From: a bacterium
GTDB taxonomy: Bacteria; Armatimonadota; Zipacnadia; Zipacnadales; Zipacnadaceae
Direction: 5' to 3'
Assembly: GCA_030603495.1 (NCBI GenBank)
Contig: JAUVXR010000040.1
Location: 1-20,766, forward strand
DNA: 20,766 bases
Part shown: piece after piece, positions 1,912-20,765 of the stretch
Layout: every line of letters starts with the position of its first letter
How positions within the stretch are numbered: position 1 is the first letter of the stretch
Position numbers and translations under genes: made by a program
Notes under the pieces: model-generated
The model's input: only the letters and a program-made list of their open reading frames with translations
What the model was told of the DNA's origin: nothing
The model's database searches: none

Positions 1912-1943
1912 AGGTCTATAAGGCCTGGTGCGGGTGTATCCAT

Positions 1944-3131: not shown

Positions 3132-3199
3132 CTGATTACGAGCATATGCTTCGGCCTGAAGATATTTAAGCCCGTTTCACCAAACTCTAATTGATCCCC

Positions 3200-4992: not shown

Positions 4993-5840
4993 GCCATCAC
5001 CACGTATGCCAGCGCCAGCACACCATAGACTATGGGGAAGGCATCGGCCAGTATTTCACAGGCAAACCTGACATTTCGCAGAGTCGTTGCCCAGGTCACC
5101 ACGGTCAAATACAGCGCCGTGGCCAGCATCACCAGCCCGAAAGTCGAAATCGCCCCCGCCATCACCACACCTCCCAGCCACATTGCCAGCAATCCATTCA
5201 GCAGGAGCAGGAGTCTCTTCGTGCGGCTAACGCCAAGCGTGACCGGGATAGTCCCGATACCGTAACGGGCATCTCCCCGTACATCCCGAATGTCGAACAG
5301 TACTGTGTTAATGAAACACATCACGAACGTATATCCGAAGACCACCCAGGCGGGGAAACCTGGGCTCCGAGACACATAGAATACCGGCACGAAAACAGTC
5401 CCGATAGCCCAGGCTAGCGCAACCGTAACGTTTTTCACGCCCGTAATCTCCTTCAAGCGGCTGACCGGCAGAGCCGGCATCCATTTGACGTTGTACAGCA
5501 GCGCCAGCACCGCCGGAAGCATCACCACCCAGACTGTCTGAGAGCCGCCCGTCAGCGCCACCGCCAGGGCAGCCGCATACGAACTTCCGGCCAAAGTCAG
5601 TAAAGCGTGTTTGTGTCTCATCACAAAACTGTAGCGCGCCGGATGACTCAGCCTGTCCTCGTCCAGGTCTGTGAACCGGTTGGTGGTGTAGATTGCAAAG
5701 GTTCCCAGAAACAGTATTGCCAGTATCGCAGGATATGGCTCGACATCCAGGAACACACAGGTTGCATATGCCATGAATGCTGCGCCTACCGCCAGAAATA
5801 CGTTGGTGTACACCGCCCAGTCGCGCAGGTCTCTGAACAT
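4989..5840 (-). CDS. UbiA-family membrane prenyltransferase
   Basis: Integral membrane enzyme that transfers a prenyl chain to an aromatic or other acceptor. Seen: the first prenyl-diphosphate/Mg motif N54-F-T-D58-L-D-E-D62 in NRFTDLDEDRLSHP, the second motif D183-IR-D186-VRG-D190 followed by GIGTIPVTLG, and about eight to nine hydrophobic helices over 283 aa, the normal size. Both Asp-rich motifs are intact. The family includes quinone (UbiA, MenA), heme O, chlorophyll (BchG/ChlG) and archaeal lipid (DGGGP synthase) enzymes; substrate cannot be set from sequence. It is first in a two-gene operon with the V4R-like protein; a chlorophyll-synthase-like or quinone role is therefore possible but unproven. 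The start ATG at 5840 has no strong Shine-Dalgarno sequence. Confidence 0.88.
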   Translation of the reverse strand: MFRDLRDWAVYTNVFLAVGAAFMAYATCVFLDVEPYPAILAILFLGTFAIYTTNRFTDLDEDRLSHPARYSFVMRHKHALLTLAGSSYAAALAVALTGGSQTVWVVMLPAVLALLYNVKWMPALPVSRLKEITGVKNVTVALAWAIGTVFVPVFYVSRSPGFPAWVVFGYTFVMCFINTVLFDIRDVRGDARYGIGTIPVTLGVSRTKRLLLLLNGLLAMWLGGVVMAGAISTFGLVMLATALYLTVVTWATTLRNVRFACEILADAFPIVYGVLALAYVVMA

Positions 5841-5890
5841 AGGCCTCTGTTAATAGTTGGCTGCTTCGCCTTATTAAGCTGTTAACCACA

Positions 5891-5947
5891 TCACCAGCAA
5901 CTGCGCGAACCGCACCCACCTTCTTCGACACCTTCAAGTACTTCTAT
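5891..5947 (-). other. Possible leader mini-ORF with non-standard ATA start
   Basis: On the minus strand a perfect Shine-Dalgarno sequence (AGGAGGAGGT, 5951-5960) sits at ideal distance from an ATA codon at 5945-5947, opening an 18-codon frame whose product ends GGCGSRSCW before a TGA at 5891-5893. The next gene downstream is the UbiA prenyltransferase, 50 bp away. No ATG, GTG or TTG is available at that spacing. It may be a leader peptide, a precursor peptide, or an accident. Confidence 0.25.
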
Positions 5948-5961
5948 GTGAACCTCCTCCT

Positions 5962-6150
5962 ATGGCAGGCAGCTATCAACCCGACCGGCCCCAGCCCAGG
6001 AAGTGCCAACAGTGCATCTGTGGCATACAAAACGACCGGGGCATCTGGTGTGCAAAGCTCAAACGCATTCCGACCAGACGAGAGGTCAAACGCTGCCGCC
6101 ATTTTTGCCCCAAGGTTCTACTGGATGACGACTATTCCAGTGAGCCCTAA
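5962..6150 (+). CDS. Small Cys-rich (zinc-finger-like) protein, 62 aa
   Basis: The frame holds C-x2-C-x-C near residues 15-20, then single or paired cysteines in GIWC and RCRHFC, spaced as in small zinc-binding proteins. Between them are basic residues (KLKRIPTRREVKR). The Cys spacing and the position ahead of the + strand nuclease operon support a real gene; the lack of a Shine-Dalgarno sequence before the ATG at 5962 (the local cctcct is the wrong strand) counts against it. Function unknown; a nucleic-acid-binding or structural zinc site is only a guess. Nothing else is seen in 6151-6236 apart from the ribosome binding site of the next gene. Confidence 0.4.
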   Translation: MAGSYQPDRPQPRKCQQCICGIQNDRGIWCAKLKRIPTRREVKRCRHFCPKVLLDDDYSSEP

Positions 6151-6236
6151 GGGTTTCATTCGCATTCAAACTTCCCCGCCATCAGGTCAGTCACCCAATG
6201 GCTTGACCTTACATCGGTGGGGAGAGGAGGTAGAAT

Positions 6237-6644
6237 ATGAAAGGAATCATTGAACAAATCTGGGAGAATGAAAGCAAGAACGGCCAGCAGTATCTGACCG
6301 TGCAGATAGACGGTGAGCGCTACAGCGTATGGGACGACAAGCACTTTGACCAATTGCAGGAAGGAGCAGAAATCGAATACGAGTTCCGCCAGAGCGGAAA
6401 CTTCAAGAACATAACAGAGGTATCCAGTCTGACGCCGAACCACGAGCCACCGCTCTATCACAACGACCGCGACAGGCAGATCACCAGGCTGAGCTGTCTG
6501 AAGTCGGCCGCGCAGATACTGGCCCCAGCGCAAGTTGACCCAGATGCCAAGCGCGACCTGGTCATTGACACCGCTAGAGTTTTCGAAAGATACGTTGGCG
6601 AGAACGACCCCGGTTCCCTACCCGCAGACTTGGGCGGAGAATGA
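6237..6644 (+). CDS. OB-fold-like ssDNA-binding-type protein A, 135 aa
   Basis: First gene of a three-gene operon, with a strong Shine-Dalgarno sequence (GAGGAGGT) before the ATG. Residues 1-65 form an alternating hydrophobic pattern (MKGIIEQIWEN, QYLTVQIDGERYSVWD, GAEIEYEFRQSGNFKNI) like a small OB-fold beta-barrel. Residues 80-125 are helical (RQITRLSCLKSAAQIL ... ARVFERYV) in the manner of the C-terminal helices seen on phage-type single-strand-binding proteins. It is a paralogue of the next gene: the same order of blocks, with similar residues throughout the N-terminal half. The fold is inferred from pattern only. With a RecB-like nuclease two genes on, binding of single-stranded DNA is a reasonable expectation, not shown. 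Confidence 0.6.
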   Translation: MKGIIEQIWENESKNGQQYLTVQIDGERYSVWDDKHFDQLQEGAEIEYEFRQSGNFKNITEVSSLTPNHEPPLYHNDRDRQITRLSCLKSAAQILAPAQVDPDAKRDLVIDTARVFERYVGENDPGSLPADLGGE

Positions 6645-6645
6645 T

Positions 6646-7107
6646 ATGCAGGGAACCGTAGAGAAGATCTGGCAGAACCAGCGTCAGGACGGCTCCCAGT
6701 ACTGGATGCTATCCATTGACGGTCAGCGCTACACCACATTCGCCAAGGAACTCGCCGAGGGCATTAGCGAGGGAGACCGCGTCGAGTTCTCCTTCTACAA
6801 CTCAGGCCGCTACCGCAAGATTGCCGCTATCCAACGGCTGTCATCTAGAGCCCCTACTGCCACCAAAAACTCTCCACTCAGCGCTGAGTCCCTGCGCATC
6901 ATCCGTATGAACTGCCTGCGCACCGCCGCGGAAATCCTGAAAGACTCTAAGCTGTTGCCCGAGCAAAGACTGTCGGTGGTGACGACCATAGCCCAGCAGC
7001 TACAGCAATACGTGCTGCGGCCACCCGGCGATGACCCACCGCAGTCACCGCACGAGCAGCGTAAGGCAAAAGCCGCTAAAGCCAAGGCGGAGGGGAAGAA
7101 TGACTGA
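6646..7107 (+). CDS. OB-fold-like ssDNA-binding-type protein B, 153 aa
   Basis: The ATG at 6646 follows the previous stop by one base and is preceded by GGGCGGAGA, so I prefer it to upstream starts inside the previous gene. Residues 1-62 repeat the pattern of its upstream neighbour (MQGTVEKIWQN, SQYWMLSIDGQRYTTF, GDRVEFSFYNSGRYRKI), and the helical C-terminal block also recurs (RIIRMNCLRTAAEIL ... IAQQLQQYV). It adds a basic tail rich in Lys, Ala and Gln after residue 125, which could touch DNA or a partner. The stop overlaps the nuclease start by 8 bp, so expression of the two is coupled. A tandem duplication that has since diverged is the simplest history. Confidence 0.6.
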   Translation: MQGTVEKIWQNQRQDGSQYWMLSIDGQRYTTFAKELAEGISEGDRVEFSFYNSGRYRKIAAIQRLSSRAPTATKNSPLSAESLRIIRMNCLRTAAEILKDSKLLPEQRLSVVTTIAQQLQQYVLRPPGDDPPQSPHEQRKAKAAKAKAEGKND

Positions 7108-7846
7108 TGAACCCCACCTCTCCGTGACGCAGCTCAAGATGTACCTGCGTTGCCCCCTCCAGTACTACTTCCGGTACGTCTGCGGCCTGAAGATACCGCC
7201 TACTGGCAGCCTTACTCTGGGCCGCACGGTCCACGGCACACTCGAAGAAAACTACCGACAGAAGATTCAGAGTCACCAGGACCTGCCCCTGCAGCAGATC
7301 GAGGACATATTCAGTCAGCGCTGGGATGAGGAGGCCCAGTTAACGCTCTTCCAAGAAGAAGAAAAGCCCGGCCAGCTCAAAGACGATGGTATTCGATTGC
7401 TTGACCCTTACCACCGCAACGTGGCGCCGAGGGTCCAGCCGATAGAGGTCGAGCGCGAGTTTCTCGTAGAAACCGGCGCCACTCAGCTTCCGCTAAAGGG
7501 CTACATCGACCTGATAGATGACCAGAGAACCATCATAGACCACAAGACCACAAAGCGCAGCTTTCCCGCAGACGCCGCCGCGAAAGACCTGCAGCTTACC
7601 GCGTACGCTTTCGCATATCGTACTCTGTATGGTCAGAACGAGAACGGTCTGCGGTTGGATGGCTTAGTACGAACCAAGCAGGCCAAGATACAGCAGCTGG
7701 AAACCACCCGAACCCAAGCTCACATTGACCGCTTCCTGCGGTTAGCAGAGCACGTTGAGCGCGCGATAGAAACTGAGGTCTACTACCCCAACGACAATTT
7801 TATGTGTGGAATTTGTGGGTACAGAGAGATGTGTGGGGAGTGGTAG
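7100..7846 (+). CDS. RecB/Cas4-like PD-(D/E)XK nuclease with Fe-S cluster cysteines
   Basis: 248-aa stand-alone nuclease of the PDDEXK_1 type (AddB C-terminal, Cas4 relatives). Seen: opening block SVTQLKMYLRCPLQYYFRY with C18, conserved H45 (TVHGTLE), D137 in GYIDLI, D147-H-K149 in IIDHKT, Q165 and Y169 in LQLTAYAF, and C-terminal C236-x2-C239-x5-C245, which with C18 would hold a 4Fe-4S cluster. All catalytic residues are present. Known relatives cut single-stranded or end-resected DNA. ATG at 7100 is chosen for its GGAGGGG ribosome binding site; the longer upstream frame lies inside the previous gene. No cas gene or CRISPR repeat is nearby, so a Cas4 adaptation role is not supported; repair or element maintenance with the two OB-like partners fits better. 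Confidence 0.88.
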   Translation: MTDEPHLSVTQLKMYLRCPLQYYFRYVCGLKIPPTGSLTLGRTVHGTLEENYRQKIQSHQDLPLQQIEDIFSQRWDEEAQLTLFQEEEKPGQLKDDGIRLLDPYHRNVAPRVQPIEVEREFLVETGATQLPLKGYIDLIDDQRTIIDHKTTKRSFPADAAAKDLQLTAYAFAYRTLYGQNENGLRLDGLVRTKQAKIQQLETTRTQAHIDRFLRLAEHVERAIETEVYYPNDNFMCGICGYREMCGEW

Positions 7847-7875
7847 GCTTGCGCCTCAGTCTCCACAAACCTGCA

Positions 7876-9090
7876 TCACCAGACGGAGTCGCCATACACA
7901 GTCTCAACGATCTCACGTAACCTCTCTGGCACCGACGCAATGTCAGCTTCGCTGACGTGCTCCGAAGCCGCGAGAGGTCCGCCCAGCTTCTCCTTCTGTG
8001 CATTCGAGATGCCCGCGACTCGTTCGAACTCGGGATCGACCGGCAACACGCGCCCACGCCCATCAGCGGCGACACATGCAATCGTGTTGTTCATCTCAAA
8101 TAGACGCTTCGCCGTTCCGTACTTCGGGTCTGTCGGCAGCATGTCCTCGGGGATCGGGTCCACATCATAGACCACCAAGTATGGAATCGTGAATGCATTC
8201 AGCACTCTCATGAACAGCTCGAGGTTGCCCTTGCCCCCAACCTCTATGATAGTGACCTCGTGCCTAAACATACCCATCCGCCTGGCAATCAGCGGAAGCG
8301 CAACCTTCTCCGTGTCCCCCTCAACAAGCACCACTCGACGTGTGAAGAAGAGCTCATTCCGCTCCGGGTCAAACTCTGTCAACATCCTGAATCGCTTCTT
8401 CTTCTCCTCTTCCGCAAAAATCTCTGTGCAGCACTGTTTGACGCTCGATCCCGCTTCAATTGTGGGTTTGTCCACGATGCAGATAGAGGCATAACGATCC
8501 ATCTTCACGAAGAACGTGGAATGGCTACACATTAGGACCTGATCGTGATCCGCTATCGTCTCCAATATACCAAACATGCTGCGCTGCAACTGTGGATGTA
8601 GGAAAAGCTCTGGCTCCTCAATCGCGAAAATTAGGTTCTTTGCCCCTTCGCGCACCGCCGCTTTGGCGGCTTCTCGCTGCAAGAGCCTCGCATACGCTCG
8701 AAACAAAACAAACAACATTGCCCTTTGTACGCCATGTCCCTTCGATTCCAGATACGTGCGTAGGCCGTCGTTGACCACAATCCGTGTGACCAACCGAAAG
8801 AATTCATTCACCTCCGGTGTGTTTATTTCCAACTCCACACCACACCCAGGAACACACTCGTCCAACAGTTCACTCAGCTCACCCTCAAACACTTTGATCT
8901 CCTCCAGCCTATCGTCGTCAGCGTTCCCTCCCTCGCTGGGTCGGCTCAACGGTGAACGAACTTCTTGGATACTTTGTTCTATCTGGCGTACACGCTCATT
9001 CTCTTCCACGATTCGGGACACCATAGAGGTCACAAGCTGCCCGAACATGCTCTGCGCGGTGATCTTCTCTTCCTCCGATACATCCCGCAC
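7876..9090 (-). pseudogene. OLD-family ATPase/TOPRIM nuclease, N-terminally truncated
   Basis: Overcoming-lysogenization-defect (OLD) proteins join an ABC-type ATPase to a TOPRIM nuclease. Seen here: the ABC signature-like segment ESKGHGVQRAM (115-125), Walker B FAIEEPELFLHP (155-166), H-loop MCSHS (187-191), then TOPRIM motifs VLVEGDTEK (254-262), EVGGKGN (283-289) and D309/D311 (YDVDPIP). Missing: the whole N-terminal part with Walker A, about 150-200 residues. The frame stays open only to 9156 (in-frame TGA at 9157-9159), and the family-like block PAVRDVSEE crosses the proposed GTG start, showing that the gene once began further upstream. tusA starts at 9238, so there is no room for the missing part. 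Without a P-loop it cannot bind ATP normally; likely a relic, possibly still making a TOPRIM protein. Convergent with the nuclease gene, 29 bp apart. Confidence 0.75.
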
Positions 9091-9237: not shown

Positions 9238-9462
9238 ATGGCGGATGTCACCGTTGATGCCAGAGGTCTATCATGCCCAATGCCGATCGTAAAGCTCACC
9301 AAGACAGTCAAATCCATGTCCGCTGGGGATAGCATCACTGTAATGGCCGATGACCCTGGTTTCGAACCGGACGTTAGGGCTTGGATCGAAGCCCAGGGAC
9401 ATGAACTGGACTCTCTGACCGAGGCGGACGACGTTTTCACGGCGGTCATAAATGTCAGATAG
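9238..9462 (+). CDS. tusA: TusA/SirA-family sulfur carrier protein
   Basis: Small cytoplasmic carrier that holds sulfane sulfur on one cysteine as a persulfide and hands it to DsrE-type partners. Seen: the family motif LSCPMPIVKL at residues 11-20 with the CPxP active Cys13, then GDSITVMADDPGF and the C-terminal strand, total 74 aa, the standard length. A ribosome binding site (GAGGGGG) precedes the ATG. It is the first gene of a five-gene operon whose other members are all DsrE-superfamily proteins, so the donor-acceptor relation is built into the gene order. Confidence 0.93.
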   Translation: MADVTVDARGLSCPMPIVKLTKTVKSMSAGDSITVMADDPGFEPDVRAWIEAQGHELDSLTEADDVFTAVINVR

Positions 9463-9481
9463 TGAGGAGTTGGAAAGGAAC

Positions 9482-9973
9482 ATGGGAAATACCGCCACGG
9501 CCCAGAAGGCAACCATCATTGTATTCGCGGATACGCTGGACAAGGTGATGGCCGCATTTATCATCGCCACCACTGCTGCTGCCATGGGAATGGCGACCAC
9601 CATGTTCTTCACCTTCTGGGGCCTTGGCGCACTCAAGAAGGGCGGTCCGGCGGACTGTAAGAGGAACTGGATGCAGAAGATGCTGGCCTGGATGCTTCCG
9701 AAGAGCCCGGCAAGTCTGCCGCTTTCGCAACTCAACATGGCAGGAATTGGCGCGGGAATGTTAAAGAAGATCATGGCGCAGAAGAAGATCGCCAGTTTGC
9801 CAGAGCTAATCGAGTCAGCGCGCGACCTCGGAGTCAGGATGATCGCCTGCCAGATGTCTATGGATGCCATGGGCATTTGCAGGGAGGAACTCATCGGCGA
9901 TATCGAGGTTGCTGGAGCCGCAACCTACGTGGGCGAAGCCCAGGACGCACAGATAAACCTGTTCGTATCCTAG
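9482..9973 (+). CDS. DsrE2-like (DsrE/DsrF/DrsH superfamily) membrane-associated sulfur-transfer protein
   Basis: 163 aa. Seen: the typical opening TIIVFADTLDKVMAAFIIAT, then AAMGMATTMFFTFWGL, a stretch rich in Met and Lys (MQKMLAWMLPKS), NMAGIGAGMLKKIM, and the conserved ACQMSMDAMGI block with its Cys, all hallmarks of the DsrE2 group (PF13686-like). The FFTFWGL helix is hydrophobic and these proteins are often membrane-attached. In the family the Cys of ACQMSMD carries sulfur received from TusA. I choose ATG at 9482, with AAAGGA just before it, since family members have only a short leader before TIIVF; a start at 9452 overlapping tusA by 11 bp is possible. Confidence 0.88.
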   Translation: MGNTATAQKATIIVFADTLDKVMAAFIIATTAAAMGMATTMFFTFWGLGALKKGGPADCKRNWMQKMLAWMLPKSPASLPLSQLNMAGIGAGMLKKIMAQKKIASLPELIESARDLGVRMIACQMSMDAMGICREELIGDIEVAGAATYVGEAQDAQINLFVS

Positions 9974-9985
9974 CAGGAGCTATCG

Positions 9986-10336
9986 ATGAGACTTGTCTTT
10001 GTTGTTCGAACTGGTCCCTACGCCTTTCAGCACATACAAACCGTAACCGACCTATCCAAGGCCGCACTGGCAAAGGGCCATGAAGTTGGCATTTTCCTGG
10101 CCGAGGACGCAGTGGTGGCCATGAACGCCGGATGCCAGACGGGCAGTCAGGCTAACATGACTCAGGCCCTTGTGAACTTGGTGGCGCAAGGCGTTGAGAT
10201 TAAGGGCTGTGGGGCCTGCTGTCAGGTGCGGGGACAGAAGCGCTCGGAGCTTGCAGAGGGGCTCAAGATGGCGGGCATTGCGACATTGGCCAAAATGGTC
10301 AATGAAGCCGACCGTGTCCTCAGCTTCGGCTACTGA
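9986..10336 (+). CDS. DsrE-like sulfurtransferase subunit
   Basis: 116-aa DsrE/TusD-type protein. Seen: the alpha/beta opening MRLVFVVRTGPY, AKGHEVGIFLAEDAV, and the Cys cluster GCGACCQVRG at about residues 72-81; DsrE and TusD carry their reactive Cys at the equivalent place before an RG. The Shine-Dalgarno sequence GCAGGAG lies 12 bp after the previous stop. DsrE, DsrF and DsrH form a hexamer in sulfur oxidisers that passes sulfur to DsrC/TusE; no DsrC/TusE gene is present in this window. Confidence 0.82.
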   Translation: MRLVFVVRTGPYAFQHIQTVTDLSKAALAKGHEVGIFLAEDAVVAMNAGCQTGSQANMTQALVNLVAQGVEIKGCGACCQVRGQKRSELAEGLKMAGIATLAKMVNEADRVLSFGY

Positions 10337-10355
10337 CCAGCAAGTTGGAAAGCAA

Positions 10356-10709
10356 ATGAAGAACGTTCTGTTCATTGTTCGAACTGCGCCGCATGGTTCA
10401 GCGGCCGTGCCCGAGAGCATAAGGACATGCCTGGGCTTCGGCACCATGCCATTTGACATCGGCTATATGCTGCTGGATGATGCCACGTGGGCCGTGCTGC
10501 CGAACCAAAGCCCCGAGTCAATTGGTGGCAATGACGCCCTTGAACTCATCGCCAACCTGACAGATCTCGGTGTGAGACTGTATGTGGAAAGCGACGCGCT
10601 CGCCGAGCGGGGCCTGTCTGTGGCAGGTATTGAGCCCGAATTCGTGCCACTTTCACAAGAGCAGATCTCCGATCTTATCGCCAGCGCCGATGTTGTGCTG
10701 ACCTACTGA
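10356..10709 (+). CDS. DsrF/TusC-like subunit
   Basis: 117 aa, same superfamily fold as its neighbours (MKNVLFIVRTAPHGSAAVPES, then FDIGYMLLDDATWAV, LGVRLYVESDAL, ISDLIASADVVLTY). The helix after the first strand has the PES.R form found in DsrF/TusC. It has a single Cys at residue 24 and none at the DsrE active position, consistent with a structural, non-catalytic subunit. The ATG at 10356 follows GGAAAG; a longer frame starting inside the previous gene is a shadow. Order E-F-H matches the dsrEFH and tusDCB operons. Confidence 0.75.
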   Translation: MKNVLFIVRTAPHGSAAVPESIRTCLGFGTMPFDIGYMLLDDATWAVLPNQSPESIGGNDALELIANLTDLGVRLYVESDALAERGLSVAGIEPEFVPLSQEQISDLIASADVVLTY

Positions 10710-10721
10710 GGTATAGATGGC

Positions 10722-11015
10722 ATGCCTACACTATTCGTGCTCAGTCACGCGCCACATTCTGACCCCAACGAAGGCAAGAAGATCCTCTTTGCCAGAAGAG
10801 GGGACACGGTTATACTCATAGAGGACGCGGTATACGCCGCCGGACCCAATACAAAGCCACTTTCACCGTTTATTCGTGATGGTCTTGACCGCGGCGTGAC
10901 CTTCCACGTTCTGGAACCTGACTTGGTGGCGCGAGGCGTCGAAACCGTGTTGCCCAAAGTAGACTACGGTGGCCTTGTGGACCTGATTGTTAAGCATGAA
11001 CGAGCTGTTCACTAA
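10722..11015 (+). CDS. DsrH/TusB-like subunit
   Basis: 97 aa, the usual length for DsrH/TusB. Seen: MPTLFVLSHAPHSDP, then GDTVILIEDAVYAA (the family's strand-helix turn after GD) and a C-terminal helix after VDYGGLVDLI. There is no cysteine anywhere, so it cannot carry sulfur itself; in sulfur-oxidiser DsrH a Cys is usually conserved. GAGG lies 10 bp before the ATG. It closes the operon; no T-rich terminator is clear after it, only a weak CCCA/TGGG hairpin near 11023-11035. Confidence 0.75.
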   Translation: MPTLFVLSHAPHSDPNEGKKILFARRGDTVILIEDAVYAAGPNTKPLSPFIRDGLDRGVTFHVLEPDLVARGVETVLPKVDYGGLVDLIVKHERAVH

Positions 11016-11799: not shown

Positions 11800-12468
11800 C
11801 TACTTGAACACGCGCTTGCCGTCCCTAAGCTCCACAACCCGGTCACAGCGGTCCGCTTGCTCCAAGTCGTGCGTGGCGACTACTATAGCCAGCCCGTCCT
11901 GCTTGAGTTCTTCGAAGATGCCCAGGATGGCGTCGCGCGATTTGCGCTCGAGGCGTCCGGTGGGCTCATCAGCCAACAGAAGTTTAGGATCATTGACCAG
12001 CGCTCTGGCGATGGCCACCCGCTGCATCTCGCCCCCATCCAGGCTGGTCGGCAACGCACGCAGCTTGCCCGACAGACCGACTCTTTCACATAATTCCTCA
12101 ACTCGCTGCGGATCTTTACGACTGGCAAAAAGCAAGGGCAAAGCGACATTCTCGGCTACCGTTAGAGTTGGCAGCAGGTAGAATAGCTGAAAGATGAAGC
12201 CGATGTAGTCCCGGCGAAAGGAGACAAGCTGTGGCTCCGGCAGGGCTGTGATGTCCGTACCCGTGATGATAACCGAGCCCCTCGTGGGGCGGTCCAGACA
12301 TCCTGCCTGATTCAAGAAAGTCGTCTTGCCCGAGCCTGAGCGGCCCACTATGCCGACCATCTCACCGGGTTGCACAGTGAGATTGAAGTCAGCTAGAGCA
12401 TGGATGGTCTCGCTCCCCCGCTGGTATGTCCGCCAGAGCTGTTTGGCTTCCAGGGCTGATGTGTTCAT
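11800..12468 (-). CDS. LolD/MacB-type ABC ATPase B (altered signature and D-loop)
   Basis: 222-aa nucleotide-binding subunit. Seen: Walker A GRSGSGKT (41-48 region), Q-loop [13 protein letters not shown] with Gln kept, Walker [11 protein letters not shown]-loop VVATHD. Odd: the ABC signature is LDGGEMQR instead of LSGGE, and the D-loop is GRLE instead of GNLD. Both elements act in trans on the ATP held by the partner subunit. It starts one base after the stop of ATPase A, with GTGGAGG as ribosome binding site, and is the last gene of the operon. With ATPase A it probably powers the two FtsX-type permeases as a heterodimer; two independent homodimers are the alternative. LolD moves lipoproteins and MacB pumps drugs or peptides; substrate here is unknown. 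Confidence 0.9.
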   Translation of the reverse strand: MNTSALEAKQLWRTYQRGSETIHALADFNLTVQPGEMVGIVGRSGSGKTTFLNQAGCLDRPTRGSVIITGTDITALPEPQLVSFRRDYIGFIFQLFYLLPTLTVAENVALPLLFASRKDPQRVEELCERVGLSGKLRALPTSLDGGEMQRVAIARALVNDPKLLLADEPTGRLERKSRDAILGIFEELKQDGLAIVVATHDLEQADRCDRVVELRDGKRVFK

Positions 12469-12469
12469 T

Positions 12470-13156
12470 TTATGCCTCCACTAGTAGTCCGTCTCTGATA
12501 TGTAGCACCCGTGTGGCGCACTTCGCCAAATCAGTGTCATGAGTCGTCAGGAGTATCGTTAGGCCGTCATCGTTAAGGTCTCGAAGTAGGCTCAGGATCT
12601 CGTCACGAGTCCGAGTATCCAGATTGCCGGTCGGTTCATCCGCGAGAAGCACTGTAGGTTGGTTGATCAGCGCCCGGGCAATAGCCACTCGCTGCATCTC
12701 ACCGCCCGAAAGCTCAGTTGGCCGGTGGGTGAGGCGGTGGGCCAAGCCGACTCGTTCAAGTAGCTCGCGGGCCCGTTGAGGATCGCGCTGGTCCCGCCAC
12801 AGCAGAGGCAACTGTGCGTTCTCCATAGCCGTGAGTGTCGGTAGCAGGTAGAAATCAGCGAACACGAAGCCCACATGCTCACGCCGGAGCGCATCCAACT
12901 GCCCCTCCGACAGATACGCGCCGTCCCCGTAGACTTGGTTTCCAGCCACCGTCAGGCGCCCACCGGTCGGTCTGTCCAGGCAGCCCACCAGGTTGAGTGT
13001 GGTCGTCTTGCCGGCGCCCGAAGGCCCCAGCAGCACCACGAACTCGCTGGCCCGCAGCGACAGGTCAATGCCGCGCAAAGCGGGGACCGATCTTTTCCCC
13101 ACGCGATAAGACTTCTGCAGGTCAATTGCTTCCACGACATGGTCATTACTACTCAT
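12470..13156 (-). CDS. LolD/MacB-type ABC ATPase A (Q-loop Gln replaced)
   Basis: 228 aa from the ATG at 13154-13156, which overlaps the permease stop by one base (TAATG); upstream in-frame starts lie inside that permease. Seen: Walker A GPSGAGKT, signature LSGGEMQR intact, Walker [13 protein letters not shown] intact, H-loop LLTTHD intact. Odd: the Q-loop reads [13 protein letters not shown], with Ala where nearly all ABC ATPases have Gln, the residue that senses the gamma-phosphate site and contacts the permease. The change is a clean codon difference (GCT), not a frameshift. Its deviation and those of ATPase B would meet in the same ATP site of a heterodimer. Confidence 0.9.
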
Positions 13157-14352
13157 TAGGTACCACCACCTTTGATCGCTTCGATGGGAGAGATTGAGGC
13201 TGCGCGCCACGCCGGGTAGCTGCCCGCTATCATCCCCAGGATGACTGACACTCCCAGGCAGAACCAAAGGGTGCTAGCCGAAAAGCCCAACGCGAAGTCG
13301 CTAGGAGCGTAGGGCAACACATGTCGCAATACTGCGACTACGCCCCGCGCCGAGACGACCGCCAGCCCAACTCCCGCCACTCCACCCGCCAGAGTCATTA
13401 GCAGTGTCTCCAGCCAGATGAGACGAAAGATATCCAGCCGACCGGCCCCCATCGCCTTCATCATCCCAATCTCCTGGGTGCGTTCGTGCACGGTCATCAG
13501 GATCGTGGTCAACACGCCCACGCCGCCGACCAGCAAAGCCACCGCCACGATGGCCAGGACGAAGACCTTGGTCGAAGAGATCAGGTTGGTGAGCGTGCCC
13601 AGCAGCTCCGAGAGTGGGAAGATATTCATACCCGCTTTCGCTTCTCGGGAGGCGGCCCGAAGCCGCTCAGCTACCTGGTCAGTCTGACTAACGTCTTCCA
13701 CCTTGACCAGGATCACCACCAGCTTGTCCTCCAGGCCAAAGATCTGCTGCAGGGTGGCCTGGGGCAAGAAGATCAGGCCATCATCCTGACTATTGGTGCG
13801 CTCCAGTACTCCAGCGACGCGCAACCGGGTGGGAGGAATGCGGCTGCCATCGGCAATAGTAATCTCATCGCCAACCCCGAAGCCCCCGAGTTCCGCGACT
13901 GAAGGACCCAATATGGCGGTGCGCTCAGCATCAAACCAACCGCCCGCCTGGTACTCCCATTTGGCGCGCATCTTCGGGTACTCCTCATCAATGCCCATGT
14001 ATATCAGGTTCTGACTACCTCCCCCTTTGATGACAGCGTCCATGATCAGGGCAGCACTCTCACCAACACCGGGAGTCGCTTTGACGATGTCGTACCACTC
14101 CTGCTCCATATAGCGGGGCCATTTGCCACCATGCAGGACTATTGTCGCGGCCTCGTACGGGCAGCCGCGCGGCACGATCATAATGTGGGCGCCCAGGCCG
14201 CCCAGTTCACTGCGCAGGCCCTGTTCGTAGCCACGCTGGAACTCCAGCAGGTTGAACAACATGGCCACCGCAATGGCGATGCCGGCCAGGGTCAACAGTG
14301 AACGGATCGGGCGGCGCACAACATTCTTAATTGCCAGGTTAAGCCAATCCAT
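13156..14352 (-). CDS. FtsX/MacB-type ABC permease B
   Basis: 398 aa. Seen: N-terminal membrane helix (about 18-38) after LAIKNVVRRPIRS, a large extracytoplasmic domain (about 40-265), then three C-terminal helices (near 270-295, 318-345 and 360-385), the MacB/FtsX layout. The outside domain holds VPRGCPYEAATIVL with one Cys, and TNSQDDGLIFLP, both shared with permease A. The ATG at 14352 is favoured over TTG at 14358 by its distance from AGGTGA. The FtsX family works mechanically, driving a periplasmic step rather than moving substrate through the membrane in many cases. Similar paired permeases with a GCPYEA motif occur, as I recall, near P19/FTR1 iron-uptake genes in Campylobacter. Confidence 0.88.
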   Translation of the reverse strand: MDWLNLAIKNVVRRPIRSLLTLAGIAIAVAMLFNLLEFQRGYEQGLRSELGGLGAHIMIVPRGCPYEAATIVLHGGKWPRYMEQEWYDIVKATPGVGESAALIMDAVIKGGGSQNLIYMGIDEEYPKMRAKWEYQAGGWFDAERTAILGPSVAELGGFGVGDEITIADGSRIPPTRLRVAGVLERTNSQDDGLIFLPQATLQQIFGLEDKLVVILVKVEDVSQTDQVAERLRAASREAKAGMNIFPLSELLGTLTNLISSTKVFVLAIVAVALLVGGVGVLTTILMTVHERTQEIGMMKAMGAGRLDIFRLIWLETLLMTLAGGVAGVGLAVVSARGVVAVLRHVLPYAPSDFALGFSASTLWFCLGVSVILGMIAGSYPAWRAASISPIEAIKGGGT

Positions 14353-14362
14353 GATCAATCAC

Positions 14363-15550
14363 CTACTCCGAACGCAGAGCTTGAATAGTGCGCACGCTGG
14401 CGGCGCGTAGTGCCGGATAGATACCGGCAAATAAGCCCACGCCCAGTATGGCAATGATACAGATCATCGCTGAGCGGGGGTCAAAACTGGTCATCGCGCC
14501 TTGGGGAGCCATGGGTACAAACCGCTTAATCACAGCTTCAACACCGCGGGCTCCAACAACCGCCAGTACCAGACCGGCCGCGCCGCCGACCAGGGTCAGC
14601 CCCAGCGTCTCCGACCAGATCAGACTGAATATGTGCAGACGCCCGGCGCCGGTGGCCCGCAGCACCCCGATTTCTCGGGTGCGCTCAAAGACGCTCATCA
14701 GCATCGTGTTGAGCACGCCCAAGGCGCTAATGGTGATGGCCACGGCGACTATGGCGAAGATCAAAGCCCGGGCCGAGTCCATGAGCGCCGTCATACTACC
14801 CAGGAGTTCCTCCATACGGATAATCTCGGCGTTGGGCAGCATCGCTTCCAGCCCTTCGGCGACGCCAGAAGCCAGGGAGGGGTCGGTAAGTCTGACCTGG
14901 ACGGCCGTTATCTTGCCCACCTGGTTGAACTTACGCTGGGCGGTAGTCAGGGGCAGGTAGAAGAAGCCGTCGTCCTGGCTGCCCGTGGCCTCCAGGATGC
15001 CGCTCACGGTGAACTCGGATTCAATCTCTGGCACCCACAGCTTCTCGCCGATTTCTTCCCGCTTCTCGATAAGCGCCGCGTCGTAACCGAGTACCACCGC
15101 ATTAGGCTGCGCGAGCAGGTCCCCCGTGGGGACGGCACCGCTGCCCTCCAGGCGCCACCAGTTCTTAAGCTCGAACGTGCGCCCGTCAATGCCGAGATAG
15201 ATATCAGTACGGCCCTCGTCGGGCTTGACCACTGCGTGCATCAGGGAGGGGGCAGCGATCGCCACCCCCTCCAGGGCCGCTATCCGGTCGGCTACGTCGG
15301 ACTCCAGATAGTTTTCAATCTCACCGCCCTGCAGCACCAGGGAGGCGGCCTCATAGGGACACCCAATAGGCACGACCATCAAGTGCACACCCATCTGCTG
15401 CAGTTGCTGGCGCAAGGCCTTTTGGTAGCCACTGTTAAACGTCAGCAAAGAAAACAATACGGCTACCGAAACGGCTACCGATGTCATCGTCAGCAGGGTG
15501 CGCGCCGGCCGTCGGCGCAAGTTCTTCATCGCCAAATTGGTGAGATTCAT
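14363..15550 (-). CDS. FtsX/MacB-type ABC permease A
   Basis: 395 aa with the same layout as permease B: one N-terminal helix after LAMKNLRRRPART, an outside domain, and three C-terminal helices with the FtsX-type E.TREIGVLRATGAGR loop between them. It carries VPIGCPYEAASLVL and TGSQDDGFFYLP, matching permease B, so the two are old duplicates that kept these outside motifs. AAGGAG precedes the ATG at 15550. Permease B starts 10 bp after its stop. Two different permeases with two different ATPases imply an asymmetric transporter of the LolCDE kind, but LolC/LolE lipoprotein-binding features are not apparent to me. Confidence 0.88.
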   Translation of the reverse strand: MNLTNLAMKNLRRRPARTLLTMTSVAVSVAVLFSLLTFNSGYQKALRQQLQQMGVHLMVVPIGCPYEAASLVLQGGEIENYLESDVADRIAALEGVAIAAPSLMHAVVKPDEGRTDIYLGIDGRTFELKNWWRLEGSGAVPTGDLLAQPNAVVLGYDAALIEKREEIGEKLWVPEIESEFTVSGILEATGSQDDGFFYLPLTTAQRKFNQVGKITAVQVRLTDPSLASGVAEGLEAMLPNAEIIRMEELLGSMTALMDSARALIFAIVAVAITISALGVLNTMLMSVFERTREIGVLRATGAGRLHIFSLIWSETLGLTLVGGAAGLVLAVVGARGVEAVIKRFVPMAPQGAMTSFDPRSAMICIIAILGVGLFAGIYPALRAASVRTIQALRSE

Positions 15551-15562
15551 GTGTTCGTCTCC

Positions 15563-15970
15563 TTACAGCTCGGCCGACTCGGCCGCGATTTCCAGGTCAC
15601 CATTTTCCTTCTCGATGACCTGGCCCACTATCCGCACCTTGGAGCCCTCCCGGCGCAGCGGCAGGGCGAAACCGCCAGGGTTGGTGTCAATGCGGATCTG
15701 TCCACTGGAGTCCTCGACGACGGCCCAGCAGCCCGTGTGCGGGCATTCCTTCACGATTGTGCCCTCGATGGCTACCTGGTGGCCGATGTGGCTGGGTCCG
15801 ATCTCGCCGATCTTCAGTTGTGCAGCAGTCTCAGTGGTAGTGGCCTTCACGACAGTACTCTCTGGACTTGTCCCGCCGTAAGATTCGACCTGCGGCCGGA
15901 CCAGATACCAGATGCCTCCGGCGAGCAGTACGACTATCACTACCGGAACGACTATCAGCTTGGCTTTCAT
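15563..15970 (-). CDS. Membrane-anchored OB-fold protein, DUF4920-like
   Basis: 135 aa. An N-terminal hydrophobic helix (about 4-24) anchors a periplasmic domain. From residue 64 the pattern VAIEGTIVKECPHTGCWAVV, with C76, C81 and W82, then GQIRIDT, and GSKVRIVGQVIEKENGDLEI matches the small OB-type domains that include DUF4920, where a C-x(3-4)-GCW motif is conserved. The two Cys could bind metal or form a disulfide. It stands between the FMN-binding-domain protein and the permeases, 12 bp before permease A. A periplasmic metal- or redox-partner role for the ABC system is likely but inferred. Confidence 0.65.
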   Translation of the reverse strand: MKAKLIVVPVVIVVLLAGGIWYLVRPQVESYGGTSPESTVVKATTTETAAQLKIGEIGPSHIGHQVAIEGTIVKECPHTGCWAVVEDSSGQIRIDTNPGGFALPLRREGSKVRIVGQVIEKENGDLEIAAESAEL

Positions 15971-15989
15971 ATCAATTCACCTCTTTCAG

Positions 15990-16577
15990 TTATTTGGTAC
16001 CAATATTGAGCTCTTCGTAGGCAACCAACAGCTTCTTTACTGATAGTGCGACCACTTTACTGCCCTTTACCGCTCCTGGGTGGGCCTCCTTGATGTCCTC
16101 GCCCACCTGCAACTTACTGTTGGCCTGCTTGCCCTTGAACTGGTCCAGAAAAGTGGCGCTGCGTAGGGCACTACGGTAGCGCTCGCGGTCTCTCTGGATT
16201 TTGACAGCCTTGATCTTGGCCGGAGCATCGGGCGGATCCACGATGGCCACAACCACTTCAATGGCTCCGTAGTCGCCCTTACCCAGGTGACTGGCGACCG
16301 TGCCGACTCGCTGCCCGTCCTTGATAACCGGCCAGAACTTGAGCTGTAATTCGTCAGAGTCGAGTTTCTGGCCGATACGCTTTTCAATCTTGGTCTTCTT
16401 GGAGCCCACTCTCTCCAGTACAGTGCGGTACTTGCCGCCGCCAAAGAATTCCTTAATGTCGGCGTCAGGGTTGCGCCATACACACAGTGAGGCCAGCGCG
16501 GTGCTCAGCGGCACCAGTGCCAGCACGGTGGCCAGAAGCAGTGCCACGTAAGAACGTCTGTATCCTTTGGGTAGCAT
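15990..16577 (-). CDS. Exported FMN-binding-domain (NqrC/RnfG-like) protein
   Basis: 195 aa from ATG at 16577, which lies 7 nt after AGGAGG; the GTG at 16583 is too close to that site. Seen: a signal or anchor helix at about 8-29, then a domain with YGAIEVVVAIV......KIKAVKIQRDRERYRS and TFLDQFKGK, followed by HPGAVKGSKVVALSVKKLL, the order seen in PF04205 FMN-binding domains. The usual Ser/Thr attachment motif (TGAT/S) is not clear, so covalent flavin is doubtful. Its ribosome binding site overlaps the porin stop region, showing coupling. In Nqr, Rnf and NosR systems such domains pass electrons across or along the membrane, so here it hints at a redox step outside the cytoplasm. Confidence 0.7.
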   Translation of the reverse strand: MLPKGYRRSYVALLLATVLALVPLSTALASLCVWRNPDADIKEFFGGGKYRTVLERVGSKKTKIEKRIGQKLDSDELQLKFWPVIKDGQRVGTVASHLGKGDYGAIEVVVAIVDPPDAPAKIKAVKIQRDRERYRSALRSATFLDQFKGKQANSKLQVGEDIKEAHPGAVKGSKVVALSVKKLLVAYEELNIGTK

Positions 16578-16589
16578 CTTCACACCTCC

Positions 16590-17615
16590 TCAGATGTCTG
16601 GTGACCAAACGTATTCTCGATAGTATTGGAGTGTCCAAAGATCAGCGGAGCGATCGGAAGCCAGGTTCGGATGCGCCCACCGATGCTCATAGCTAAGCCG
16701 CAGTCCGCTCCAGTCGTCCAGGCGATGGTGTGTCTCCGCACCCAGGCCATAGCTGGTGCCATCCTCCTGGCGCCAGCGATCCGCTTGTAAAGTGAGGTCC
16801 GTCTCGTAGGAGAAGGGGTGGTTGTAGTACAGCCACTGCCCATCCACCCTCTTGCTATCATCCTGGCCCACCACCAGCTCAGCGCGGATATTGTCAATCC
16901 CCCGCAGCCAATCTACGTCCACCGCCAGCCTTCGCTTGTCTGCGAAGGCAACCATCTCGTCCATCCCCATCGGCACCGGCATGGGATTGGTGGGAAAAGT
17001 AGGCATGTTATTGCCTTCCAGGTAGGAGAAGCCGAGGCGCAGGAAGTCGTCGCCTAACTCCCAATCACGGACCAGCCGCAGACTGGCCGCGTAGCCGCCG
17101 TTCTGCCTGGTGCGGCCGTCGCCTGACGTGGCCGACAGCCAGTAGTCCCAGTCGCCGACGAAGCCTTCCAGCTCCACACCTCTGTCCAATCGCAGGCCTA
17201 TTGTGCGGGCGTACGGCGTCTGCAGGAGCAGAGCGTGAGTGGCGAACTCGGCGAGGGTGCCGAAGGGCACCACAAACTGACCGACCTTGACCTTGGGCCG
17301 GCCCACGCCGAGATTTCCGACGGCGTAGAAGTTGCTGAAGTGCATCTGCCGGGCGCGGCCGGTCATCGGCGTCGCTAAGACGCCCTGGAGCGCGAAGTTC
17401 GCCCACTCCTTCTCACCGTCGCCCACTGAGAAGCGCAAGTCAATTTCACCCTGCTGCACACGCAGCGTCTCGGCAGCAGGTTGCCCAGCTTTCGCGCGGA
17501 GGTCCAGCCGAGGAAGTATCTCCACGGCGCTGACCTTGAGCTCTGCGCTGGCGCAATTTGCACTCAGTAGCAACAGGCTTACCACAACAACTGTCGGTCG
17601 AACGATGTTTTTCAC
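16590..17615 (-). CDS. Outer-membrane beta-barrel, phosphate-selective-porin-like
   Basis: 341 aa from GTG at 17615, spaced from GAGGGGT; the upstream TTG would add five residues before the signal peptide. Seen: a classic signal peptide (MKNIVRPTVVVVSLLLL then ANCASA for cleavage near residue 25), then alternating beta-strands with aromatic belts. The core segment VKVGQFVVPFGTLAEF.......RTIGLRLDRGVELEG is typical of porin O/P-type barrels, and later strands (WLSATSGDG, LRLGFSYLEGN, GLRLSYEHRW) fit. The end is YVWSPDI, not the usual C-terminal Phe. It implies an outer membrane. It is first in the seven-gene set, so it probably brings the same substrate or ion to the periplasm that the ABC system handles. 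A weak TTGACT box lies at 17687-17692. Confidence 0.75.
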   Translation of the reverse strand: MKNIVRPTVVVVSLLLLSANCASAELKVSAVEILPRLDLRAKAGQPAAETLRVQQGEIDLRFSVGDGEKEWANFALQGVLATPMTGRARQMHFSNFYAVGNLGVGRPKVKVGQFVVPFGTLAEFATHALLLQTPYARTIGLRLDRGVELEGFVGDWDYWLSATSGDGRTRQNGGYAASLRLVRDWELGDDFLRLGFSYLEGNNMPTFPTNPMPVPMGMDEMVAFADKRRLAVDVDWLRGIDNIRAELVVGQDDSKRVDGQWLYYNHPFSYETDLTLQADRWRQEDGTSYGLGAETHHRLDDWSGLRLSYEHRWAHPNLASDRSADLWTLQYYREYVWSPDI

Positions 17616-17646
17616 AGTGGTACCCCTCAAGTAATGGTGTGTCCGG

Positions 17647-17726: not shown

Positions 17727-18083
17727 TTAGGCAGGGGGAGCGCGCTCTGCGCGCGTTAGACAGATGGAGAAATCGCATGGAGTAATGCTGCGCTCGAGGG
17801 CCACCGCAGTGTCGGCAATGATAGTCGGCTGCGGCAGGGCCTTGGTCAGCACAAAGAGGTGTGGTACAGTCTGCTCGATCCTACTTAACGTCGCGTTGGT
17901 CGGCTGGGCAGGCTCTTTCGCCACCTCATAACAGCAGCATTCATCCGTGCCTGCTGGGTCACAATCGCAGCAACAGTCTTGCACTGGGGCTGCTGGCGTG
18001 GCAGCACACGGGCAGGCCCCGCCACCAATAGGTAGCAGAGCCTGTGCTGTGAATAGGATTGTGAGCAGTAAATGCCGTGCCAT
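17727..18083 (-). CDS. Exported Cys-rich protein, 118 aa, unknown
   Basis: Seen: a hydrophobic N-terminal segment (about 4-20) that looks like a signal peptide, then 11 cysteines: C24 and C26 (CPC), a dense cluster C37-C39, C41, C49-C51 within 15 residues, and a later pair C103 and C108. The last half is otherwise ordinary (PHLFVLTKALPQPTII). The CCCxC-x7-CCC cluster suggests binding of a soft metal or metalloid such as copper, zinc or arsenic outside the cytoplasm. It sits between arsM and the porin-ABC operon on the same strand, with about 110 bp on each side. No family recognised. An 11-bp inverted repeat lies 23 bp upstream of its ATG. Confidence 0.65.
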   Translation of the reverse strand: MARHLLLTILFTAQALLPIGGGACPCAATPAAPVQDCCCDCDPAGTDECCCYEVAKEPAQPTNATLSRIEQTVPHLFVLTKALPQPTIIADTAVALERSITPCDFSICLTRAERAPPA

Positions 18084-18191: not shown

Positions 18192-18989
18192 TCAGCCCGG
18201 CTTGCGGCCACATACTATTATGCTGAGCGCCAGGCCCTCGAGGCTGCTCTCACCACACTCTCCAGCGGCTGATACTGCTGCCTGCAGCAAGGGGTCGGAG
18301 CCGCCGCATTGAGTGAGCAGTTCCGTGGCGTCGTGCTGCGAGGCCACCCTAACATCGCACAGGCCTGCATTGCGGATAGTGGACAAGTAGTCGTCCACAA
18401 GGACGGCACCAGCCAGGCAGCCTGCCCAGGCCTCAATGCTCTGGGCCAATTCCCGGGGCAAAGGCTGCTGCAATACTATGTCGGCAATGGCCAGGCGGCC
18501 GCCCGGTTTCAATACTCGAAAAACTTCGCGGAAAACTTGGGCTTTGTCGGAAGCCAGGTTTATCACGCAGTTGCTGATCACCACATCAGCAGAATTGTCG
18601 GCCACTGGCAAGTGTTCTATTTCGCCCAACCGAAACTCTACATTACCGTAGCCGTGTTCCGCAGCAGTATTGCGCGCACGGTCAATCATTTCTGGCGTCA
18701 TATCTATGCCGAGGACCCGGCCATCCGGCCCTGCCTGCTCGGCAGCATTAAAGCAATCAAAGCCGGGGCCGGCACCCAGGTCCACTACTGTCTCACCCTC
18801 CTGCAACGCAGCGAATTGCAGAGGCATTCCGCACCCGAGACCGAGATCTGCTTCGGTGACCACTACTTGCTCCCCCGTGGGGCAGCACGATGCTGCCGCT
18901 GAAGCCGTGTTATTCGAGCAACAACTTGTCTGTTGGCCATCAGCTATCTTCCCATATACCTGGCGAATGTACGCCTTTGTATCATCCAT
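18192..18989 (-). CDS. arsM: Arsenite S-adenosylmethionine methyltransferase
   Basis: 265-aa cytoplasmic enzyme that methylates As(III) using S-adenosylmethionine. Seen: the SAM site DLGAGPGFD (70-78) and GIDMTPEMID (94-103), and the three Cys known to be needed for arsenic binding in ArsM: C53 in LGLGCGMPL, C141 in ISNCVINL, C191 in WAGCLAGA. An N-terminal CC pair (23-24) and CCP (35-37) are also typical. GGAGGAG precedes the ATG. It is 153 bp downstream of the ferredoxin gene and has its own candidate promoter with a dyad. Bacterial ArsM is usually under ArsR control, but no arsR gene is present here. Confidence 0.92.
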   Translation of the reverse strand: MDDTKAYIRQVYGKIADGQQTSCCSNNTASAAASCCPTGEQVVVTEADLGLGCGMPLQFAALQEGETVVDLGAGPGFDCFNAAEQAGPDGRVLGIDMTPEMIDRARNTAAEHGYGNVEFRLGEIEHLPVADNSADVVISNCVINLASDKAQVFREVFRVLKPGGRLAIADIVLQQPLPRELAQSIEAWAGCLAGAVLVDDYLSTIRNAGLCDVRVASQHDATELLTQCGGSDPLLQAAVSAAGECGESSLEGLALSIIVCGRKPG

Positions 18990-19142: not shown

Positions 19143-19550
19143 TCAGAGTGCCACCTCCATCGCCCGCGGCGGGCAGGCGGGGACGCACAACTCACAGGCA
19201 ATGCACTTATCCGAGTCGAACAGCACCTCCTGCGTGGCTATGTGCTTGTAGAGTGCTCCCGTCGGGCAGATGGTCACACAGGCCCCGCAGTGAGTGCATT
19301 CTTGCTCGTTGCGCACTACGTCCTTCTCCAGTGGCTGGACGCTCACGCCCTCCTCCCGAACCCAAGCCAGCGCCTGCTCGATGTCGTCCTCGGCACCCTC
19401 GAGTCCCAGCACCATCACGCCCTCGGATTGAGGCGTGATATTGGCACGCAGTATGTTGAACTCCAGGTTGTATTTACTCACTATTTGTGAAACCACCGGC
19501 GAATCAATGAGATGCCGGGGATAGTGAAACACCACGCGACGTGTTGCCAT
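19143..19550 (-). CDS. NIL-domain 2x[4Fe-4S] ferredoxin for homocysteine synthesis
   Basis: 135 aa. Residues 1-75 form a NIL domain (VVFHYPRHLIDSPVVSQIV, NILRANITPQSEGVMVLGLEG), followed by two 4Fe-4S sites, C-THC-GAC-VTICP and C-IAC-ELC-VPACP. This pairing matches the small ferredoxin encoded beside DUF39 proteins (MA1822-type in methanogens), which is needed with DUF39 to make homocysteine from aspartate semialdehyde and sulfide or another sulfur source. Its ATG follows directly after the stop of the DUF39 gene (TAG then ATG), so the two are made together. Probably the electron donor that reduces the thioaldehyde or persulfide intermediate. Confidence 0.9.
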   Translation of the reverse strand: MATRRVVFHYPRHLIDSPVVSQIVSKYNLEFNILRANITPQSEGVMVLGLEGAEDDIEQALAWVREEGVSVQPLEKDVVRNEQECTHCGACVTICPTGALYKHIATQEVLFDSDKCIACELCVPACPPRAMEVAL

Positions 19551-20765
19551 CTATACCACCTCCGTGCGAACCGGTCGGTCGGGCAACAACTTGAAGGTCA
19601 GCCCGGAATCGGCTGAAGGCAACAGCTCGGCTGGCTCGCTGAGCAAGAAATGGCCGGTCTCGATCCAGTCTTTGAGGATTGCGGCGATCTCGCGCGCCTT
19701 CGGATAGCTAGACAAAGACCCCGTCGGCACTTCTTTGCCATTGACCGTTATGCTGCCACTCTTCAACTGCTTGTAATTGGCGTGCCCCAGAGGCCCGCCC
19801 TCGCTGTACGGATAGTGGCGGCTGTAGTCGGTAATTGGGGCGACGATGTCCTCATCCTTGACTGCTGTGAAGCGTGCCATTTCCTCGTCCAGTACCGGAA
19901 TGGCTGCCCCCAGACCCATCTGTAACGAGACCCCGTAGCCATACATGCTGACGCCAACAACCCACTCGGCGCTCATCTGCTTCATATCACCGACCACCGA
20001 TAGGGTCCCGGCACCACCCTTGGGCACGCCCTTCTCCGTGCGCGCCACGGTGGGATTATGCTGGGTGCCCTGCCAGAATACGTAGCCTTGCGCTCCGCCC
20101 AGGAATATGCGGCTGCCTATCCCCAGGGTGCGATAGTACGGGTCATTCAGCAGAGGGCTGAGTTGCCCCGCCGAGCAATAGTTGGCATTGCCCAGGTCTG
20201 CCTTGAGCACGCCCATGTAGGTGTATATGTCGCGCTCAGAGTCGAGGTTCACCGCCACATTGTAGTTCTGGTAGGCGTTGCGAGGATTGCATAGGAAGCA
20301 TTCATTCAGATCCTCGATGTTTATCCACGTATCCAACTCCTTGCGTGGGTAGCAGTTAGTACCGTAGGCAGTGGCCCTCAGTCGCACATCCTGGCCCGCA
20401 ATCAGCTCCTCGATTACGTGCCCCCCGCCGTAAGCGAACTCGCCGGGATGATCCTGGTTAAGCGGGTCCTGCTCGGCCATCTCCGTGGCCCCGATGTAGA
20501 GGTCCACAGCCGCCAGACCGGCGTAGGCCGGTACATCGTTAAGCCACGCCTTCTGCATCTTGATACGGGGATTGGCGTGGCCGGTGTTGATGAATGCTCC
20601 TGACGAGCACATCGGGCCAAAAGTACCGGTAGTCACTACGTCCACCTGTTCGGCGGCCTTAGCGGCTCCCTCCTCTGCCACGATGTCAATCATCTCTTCC
20701 GCGGTCACGACCACCACCTGACCACTCTTGATCTTCTCGTTTATTTCCTGGTAGGTCTTAGCCAA
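19551..20765 (-). CDS. L-aspartate semialdehyde sulfurtransferase (DUF39), start at or beyond window edge
   Basis: Enzyme that places sulfur on aspartate semialdehyde on the way to homocysteine, an alternative to the MetX/MetY route. Seen over 404 residues: INEKIKSGQVVVVTAEEM near the start, TTGTFGPMCSSGAFIN with C53, GATEMAEQDPLNQDHPGEFAYGGG split around 92-115, AYGTNCYPRKE with C138, and GAQGYVFWQGTQHNP; the two Cys lie at places conserved in the family. It ends without the pair of CBS domains found in methanogen versions, as in the two-gene bacterial form. The only start in view is TTG at 20765, one base from the edge; the true start is probably a codon or so outside, so the gene is slightly partial. 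Confidence 0.9.
   Translation of the reverse strand: MAKTYQEINEKIKSGQVVVVTAEEMIDIVAEEGAAKAAEQVDVVTTGTFGPMCSSGAFINTGHANPRIKMQKAWLNDVPAYAGLAAVDLYIGATEMAEQDPLNQDHPGEFAYGGGHVIEELIAGQDVRLRATAYGTNCYPRKELDTWINIEDLNECFLCNPRNAYQNYNVAVNLDSERDIYTYMGVLKADLGNANYCSAGQLSPLLNDPYYRTLGIGSRIFLGGAQGYVFWQGTQHNPTVARTEKGVPKGGAGTLSVVGDMKQMSAEWVVGVSMYGYGVSLQMGLGAAIPVLDEEMARFTAVKDEDIVAPITDYSRHYPYSEGGPLGHANYKQLKSGSITVNGKEVPTGSLSSYPKAREIAAILKDWIETGHFLLSEPAELLPSADSGLTFKLLPDRPVRTEVV

Follow-up and report, generated by a model that had tools for sequence, protein, structure and literature searches.

A minus-strand cassette of eight genes (positions 18083-11800 of the window, the entire 20,766-nucleotide stretch of DNA that was analysed) appears to encode, in seven or eight adjacent genes, a pump that bridges the inner and outer membranes. 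The cassette works like a MacB-type system and lies outside the definitions of MacAB-TolC, LolCDE and the Fet system. We consider it an even bet that it represents an unnamed, horizontally spread MacB-type family, marked by the permease motif GCP[Y/M]EAA, present in more than 12 phyla and in methanogens and handling thiophilic cargo, in which a two-permease branch has a permanently asymmetric pair of ATPases.

Operon structure

The seven genes described in the initial annotation were all found among the window ORFs, on one strand and separated by -1 to about 20 bp, and the cassette has a further member, an exported Cys-rich gene in a conserved first position. Most of the starts are preceded by ribosome-binding-like sequences. 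The features are, from the upstream end:

18192..18989, minus strand: arsenite methyltransferase (ArsM)-like gene, directly upstream of the cassette (NF008823, 296 bits against a cut-off of 263)
17727..18083, minus strand: small exported Cys-rich protein with a C-terminal RAERAPP motif, kept 5' of the barrel in 5/6 same-order relatives
16590..17630, minus strand: exported 16-stranded outer-membrane porin-like barrel (AlphaFold and Foldseek)
15990..16583, minus strand: exported RnfG/NqrC-like protein (FMN-binding fold; RnfG profile, fold match, Cys34)
15563..15970, minus strand: membrane-anchored OB/DUF4920-like protein with the Cys pair ECPxxGCW (DUF4920 E 4e-4, below the cut-off; Cys conservation)
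14363..15550, minus strand: FtsX/MacB-type permease 1, GCPYEAA and TGSQDDG (MacB_PCD E 2e-20, FtsX E 1e-16; within the GCP clade)
13156..14358, minus strand: FtsX/MacB-type permease 2, GCPYEAA and NSQDDG (MacB_PCD E 3e-21, FtsX E 7e-17)
12470..13156, minus strand: ABC ATPase 1, canonical LSGGE and D-loop ADEPTGNLD (ABC_tran E 7e-31)
11800..12468, minus strand: ABC ATPase 2, degenerate LDGGE and D-loop ADEPTGRLE (ABC_tran E 4e-31)

An alternative GTG start near 17615 is possible for the barrel, and ATPase 1 most likely starts at the ATG at 13156, where it would overlap the stop of permease 2 by 1 base. The ArsM-like gene accompanies the window copy, is not shared by its relatives and is no conserved part of the system. 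Elsewhere in the window, a single stretch (166-9090) of this bacterial contig holds genes for a Cdc6-like AAA ATPase, a tyrosine integrase, a KaiC-like ATPase, a UbiA prenyltransferase, a Cas4-like PD-(D/E)XK nuclease and an OLD-like TOPRIM ATPase.

Distribution and gene-order variants

The order Cys-rich protein, barrel, FMN-like protein, OB protein, permease 1, permease 2, ATPase 1 and ATPase 2 recurs in six same-order genomes, with exceptions at two loci and at contig ends: the OB gene was not found in L017, and the FMN gene of L018 is masked by an overlapping ORF and was recovered on a separate search. The Cys-rich gene holds the same place in five of the six, the sixth ending at a contig edge. 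The permeases are present in 29/291 genomes of the phylum (Armatimonadota) and absent from all six of the other genomes of the window's genus, indicating a patchy presence; their nearest named relatives belong to the Armatimonadota (Candidatus Zipacnadia).

A scan of named genomes returned 479 candidate sequences related to the cassette permeases, the best 80 of which span more than 12 phyla plus methanogenic archaea; many of these are metagenome bins, for which the assigned name may be inaccurate. The bacterial taxa among the best 80 include Armatimonadota, Chloroflexota, Planctomycetota, Acidobacteriota, the Bacteroidota-like Stygiobacter, Pseudomonadota, Zixibacteria, WOR-3, Bacillota, Elusimicrobiota, Deferribacterota, Spirochaetota, Verrucomicrobiota and Margulisbacteria. 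Genes for the barrel, FMN-like protein, OB protein, permease and ATPase are repeatedly adjacent among these loci, and conservation across phyla excludes a chance arrangement. Four forms occur: (i) ArsR-barrel-FMN-OB-permease-ATPase, in a metal-resistance clade that includes a Massilia plasmid; (ii) OB-permease-ATPase, in archaea, Chloroflexota and Bacillota; (iii) YtkA-like-barrel-FMN-permease-ATPase, in Elusimicrobia, Margulisbacteria, Spirochaetia and others; and (iv) a permease pair with either a single ATPase or two, in Armatimonadota, WOR-3, Zixibacteria and two Bacillota. The barrel is present in about 36/80 of the best loci and is accompanied by the FMN-like gene in every one, although in one locus the gene caller had missed it. 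When genomes were sampled across the phyla of the Methanothrix and Chloroflexota members, only 2/246 and 1/350, respectively, contained the system, and so it is patchy in those groups as well. The proposal that the genes form an envelope-spanning system is supported, with a neighbourhood that recurs in more than 12 phyla among the best 80 of 479 relatives. The system is apparently undescribed: searches of open-access literature found no match for this gene combination or for DUF4920.

In all 13 of the sampled Armatimonadota loci that lack a barrel (L057-L062, L064, L065, L067-L071), a DUF1559/N-methyl pseudopilin-like gene, in the same orientation, adjoins the OB-FMN-permease-ATPase operon, and none lies next to the barrel-bearing loci.

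Permeases and ATPases

Both permeases possess the MacB_PCD and FtsX domains (Pfam) of type VII systems and are 42% identical to each other; the closest solved structures are MacB (best, E 3.5e-39) and LolE. The extracytoplasmic motif GCP[Y/M]EAA characterizes the family, with the GCP cysteine in 155/157 permeases. Both the domains and the shared GCPYEAA and SQDDG motifs that had been read from the window are confirmed. The permease tree, a quick search with long outgroup branches, gathers the GCP proteins in a single clade (127 rows; SH-aLRT support, 99) that excludes MacB, LolC/E and the Fet-type (Campylobacter-type FetBC) permeases. The second permease-ATPase pairs that adjoin OB-permease-ATPase cassettes at L093:9726- and L101:1993- group with the Fet-type permeases, on long branches.

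The MacB_PCD plus FtsX architecture is that of MacB itself, from which the cassette differs in its two unlike permeases, two unlike ATPases and GCP cysteine motif. MacAB-TolC, as defined, has an ATPase fused to the permease together with MacA and TolC, whereas here the ATPases are separate, the barrel has a 16-strand porin fold, and neither MacA nor TolC is encoded in the cassette. A partial counterpart is an island in Vibrio campbellii (plasmid NZ_CP092684.1, 3673-7061; L023), in which ArsR, an anchored protein, a permease, an ATPase and TlpA lie beside a Tn3 transposase; it shares with the cassette the anchored protein, a permease whose GWCAYE sequence puts a cysteine at the GCP position, a single ATPase and a metalloregulator, but has no FMN-like or barrel gene, and its permease is about 26% identical and falls outside the GCP clade.

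Both ATPases are ABC_tran proteins (Pfam), as had been annotated, and they differ consistently. The D-loop of the second reads ADEPTGRLE rather than an ADEPTGNLD-like sequence in 18/18 readable distinct two-ATPase loci, and in 16 of those 18 the second ATPase departs from the norm in its signature as well (L[DN]GG), while the first ATPase is canonical. Site asymmetry has precedents among other ABC exporters, though we know of none in MacB/Lol-type (type VII) systems.

Extracytoplasmic components

The barrel and the Cys-rich protein lack any Pfam or NCBIfam family match. Despite this, the outer-membrane barrel noted in the window is upheld by its predicted structure, a signal helix followed by 16 strands (AlphaFold, pLDDT 87), as expected of an outer-membrane porin with a signal and an even-stranded barrel; the fold matches the porins OmpU/Omp32/OprO (Foldseek, E about 1e-11 to 1e-8) and not TolC. 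It is the sole extracytoplasmic part without a near-invariant cysteine.

For the protein annotated as carrying an FMN-binding domain, export and fold held up. The predicted structure (pLDDT 92) has the RnfG/NqrC fold in fold searches and the sequence matches the RnfG profile weakly (E 2.3e-5), with no match to Pfam FMN_bind. The columns facing the RnfG TGAT are variable and no S/T-G-A-T motif is kept across the family, and since the flavinylation threonine is not conserved, the protein is unlikely to carry covalent FMN. It differs from RnfG/NqrC further in having no Rnf/Nqr partners and in an N-terminal CxW motif, the cysteine of which (Cys34, in CVWRxPDxDI) occurs in 63/67 sequences. The OB protein retains the Cys pair ascribed to it, with ECPxxGCW well conserved (Cys76 in 74/74 and Cys81 in 65/74), and its likeness to DUF4920 scores 20.8 bits against a Pfam cut-off of 25; a profile search against solved structures gave weak, uninformative matches to YgiW and RPA.

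Genomic context

In one clade, ArsR/SmtB regulators precede the cassette; they exceed the general metalloregulator cut-off, and inspection shows CadC-like Cys sites in some of them. A Cd-family P1B-ATPase and a MerT-TlpA fusion (Pfam MerT), both above cut-off, come after the cassette, with CusA/CzcA nearby. A mobilizable plasmid of a mine-tailings Massilia putida carries one copy from this clade. The subclade with this metal context is not the one to which the window belongs.

The clade of archaea and Chloroflexota has no adjoining metal-resistance genes and instead has sulfur genes for cysteine, methionine and thiamine. Cysteine desulfurase, MetX, MetY, CysK, CysE, ThiF and Rrf2, some of them named from reading the sequences rather than from the scan, neighbour form (ii) cassettes (OB-permease-ATPase; Chloroflexota, Peptococcaceae, Methanothrix and Methanospirillum) and the barrel/FMN form of Margulisbacteria. 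The thread common to these contexts is thiol chemistry, in agreement with the conserved cysteines. MduS-type methyltransferases occur in or near three cassettes (L075:3801-4529, L076:3816-4511, L077:1992-2675), their best NCBIfam match being a selenoprotein family whose C-terminal part is missing here, and one of these cassettes is directly followed (L076:7172-8872) by a membrane domain fused to a corrinoid domain like that of tetrahydromethanopterin methyltransferase subunit A.

The initial annotation had called the system "redox/metal". The metal part finds indirect backing in the gene context of some clades (ArsR, P1B-ATPase, MerT-TlpA), while the redox part is weakened by the loss of the flavinylation threonine and retains the thioredoxin or DsbD-N genes beside some relatives.

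Proposed function

Our favoured, if tentative, reading (probability about 0.4) is a type VII (MacB/Lol-like, mechanotransmission) ABC system that moves a thiophilic cargo outward, likeliest ions of soft metals or metalloids, or complexes of these with thiols. ATP hydrolysis by the normal ATPase 1 and the degenerate ATPase 2 would drive movement in the extracytoplasmic domains of both permeases; the cargo may be held on the exposed cysteines of the permease GCP motif, the OB-protein CPxxGCW and Cys34 of the FMN-fold protein, and would be handed outward to exit through the porin-like barrel. The components and how they are conserved, the cysteines and the difference between the ATPases are observed; the cargo, its outward direction and a hand-over between thiolates we infer. 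Two points favour outward movement of a metal or metalloid: the MacB-type systems characterised so far work in that direction, and the metal clade resembles a resistance island. The recurrent gene order and the 99% SH-aLRT support of the GCP clade, the near-invariant cysteines in three proteins, the metal genes around one clade's cassette, the Massilia putida plasmid copy, the ArsM-like gene abutting the window copy, and MacB and LolE as the solved relatives of the permeases all speak for this reading. Against it stand the sulfur-flanked archaeal and Chloroflexota clade, the placement of the metal context outside the window's subclade and the barrel, which is porin-like and offers no TolC duct, so that an outward drive across the outer membrane is not self-evident.

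A less probable alternative is a sulfur cargo (cysteine, persulfide, sulfide or a related thiol), the link to metals being secondary, with metals travelling as thiol complexes or thiol export forming part of detoxification. The sulfur-metabolism genes adjoining the cassettes named above agree with this, as does MetY, present in 10/80 loci (about 0.9 Mb of sequence), though these loci lack independence and an expected count could be estimated only roughly. The window itself holds DsrE2, two DsrE and a DsrH/TusB-like gene (9452-11015; downstream of the operon and convergent), with a DsrE2 gene also near the operon of its closest relative (L141), and homocysteine-biosynthesis HcyBio and NIL-ferredoxin genes (19143-20765), a pair best known from methanogens. 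However, the two-permease clade seldom has sulfur genes next to it, and the ArsR/P1B/MerT surroundings are a typical metal-resistance context.

It is unlikely that the ABC unit instead provides the periplasm with reducing power or thiol redox control, with the FMN-like, OB and thioredoxin proteins relaying electrons. TlpA, DsbD-N or MerT-TlpA genes do lie alongside several relatives, the cysteines are conserved, and a relay of reducing power has been proposed for Campylobacter FetBCD, whose substrate is unclear (PMC10783030). Such a role sits poorly with an FMN-like protein that has no flavin-attachment threonine, with permease and FMN-like cysteines that are single rather than in CxxC pairs and with a window operon free of thioredoxin genes.

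LolCDE-like extraction of a lipoprotein or pseudopilin, the client being the OB lipoprotein or the neighbouring pseudopilin, is improbable. LolCDE likewise combines heteromeric FtsX permeases with a LolD-like ATPase, the permeases are weakly LolCE-like, and the pseudopilin-like gene is constant at the barrel-less Armatimonadota loci sampled. The scores nevertheless fall well short of the equivalog cut-offs (LolCE, 86 vs 362 bits; LolD, 216 vs 308 bits), and the cassette differs in its two unlike ATPases and its added barrel, FMN-like and OB partners, has no LolA/LolB and is also archaeal; the cysteines and metal context would be left unexplained.

Least probable of all is a FetMP-type iron or copper uptake system. 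Uptake would suit a porin-like barrel, and Campylobacter FetMP-FetABCDEF likewise combines a MacB-type permease pair and an ATPase, beside P19/FTR1, with thiol-active extracytoplasmic partners, but the cassette lacks FTR1, P19 and DUF2318, and one Deferribacterota genome (G299) carries both Fet-type and GCP-type systems. The suggested kinship to the Campylobacter P19/Fet permeases holds only at the level of fold, and anything closer was rejected once P19 loci were compared in the tree, where the P19-linked, Fet-type permeases have no GCP motif and fall outside the clade.

Implications

Outward movement of a metal or metalloid ranks above sulfur species and a reductant relay. If the interpretation is true, a broadly distributed envelope ABC system with its own signature motif would join the MacB/Lol family, and the pairing of a canonical with a degenerate ATPase would be, as far as known, a mode new to type VII transporters. 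The family would also provide tractable relatives in which to ask what role MacB-type permeases have in metal or sulfur handling, a question that is also open for FetBCD.
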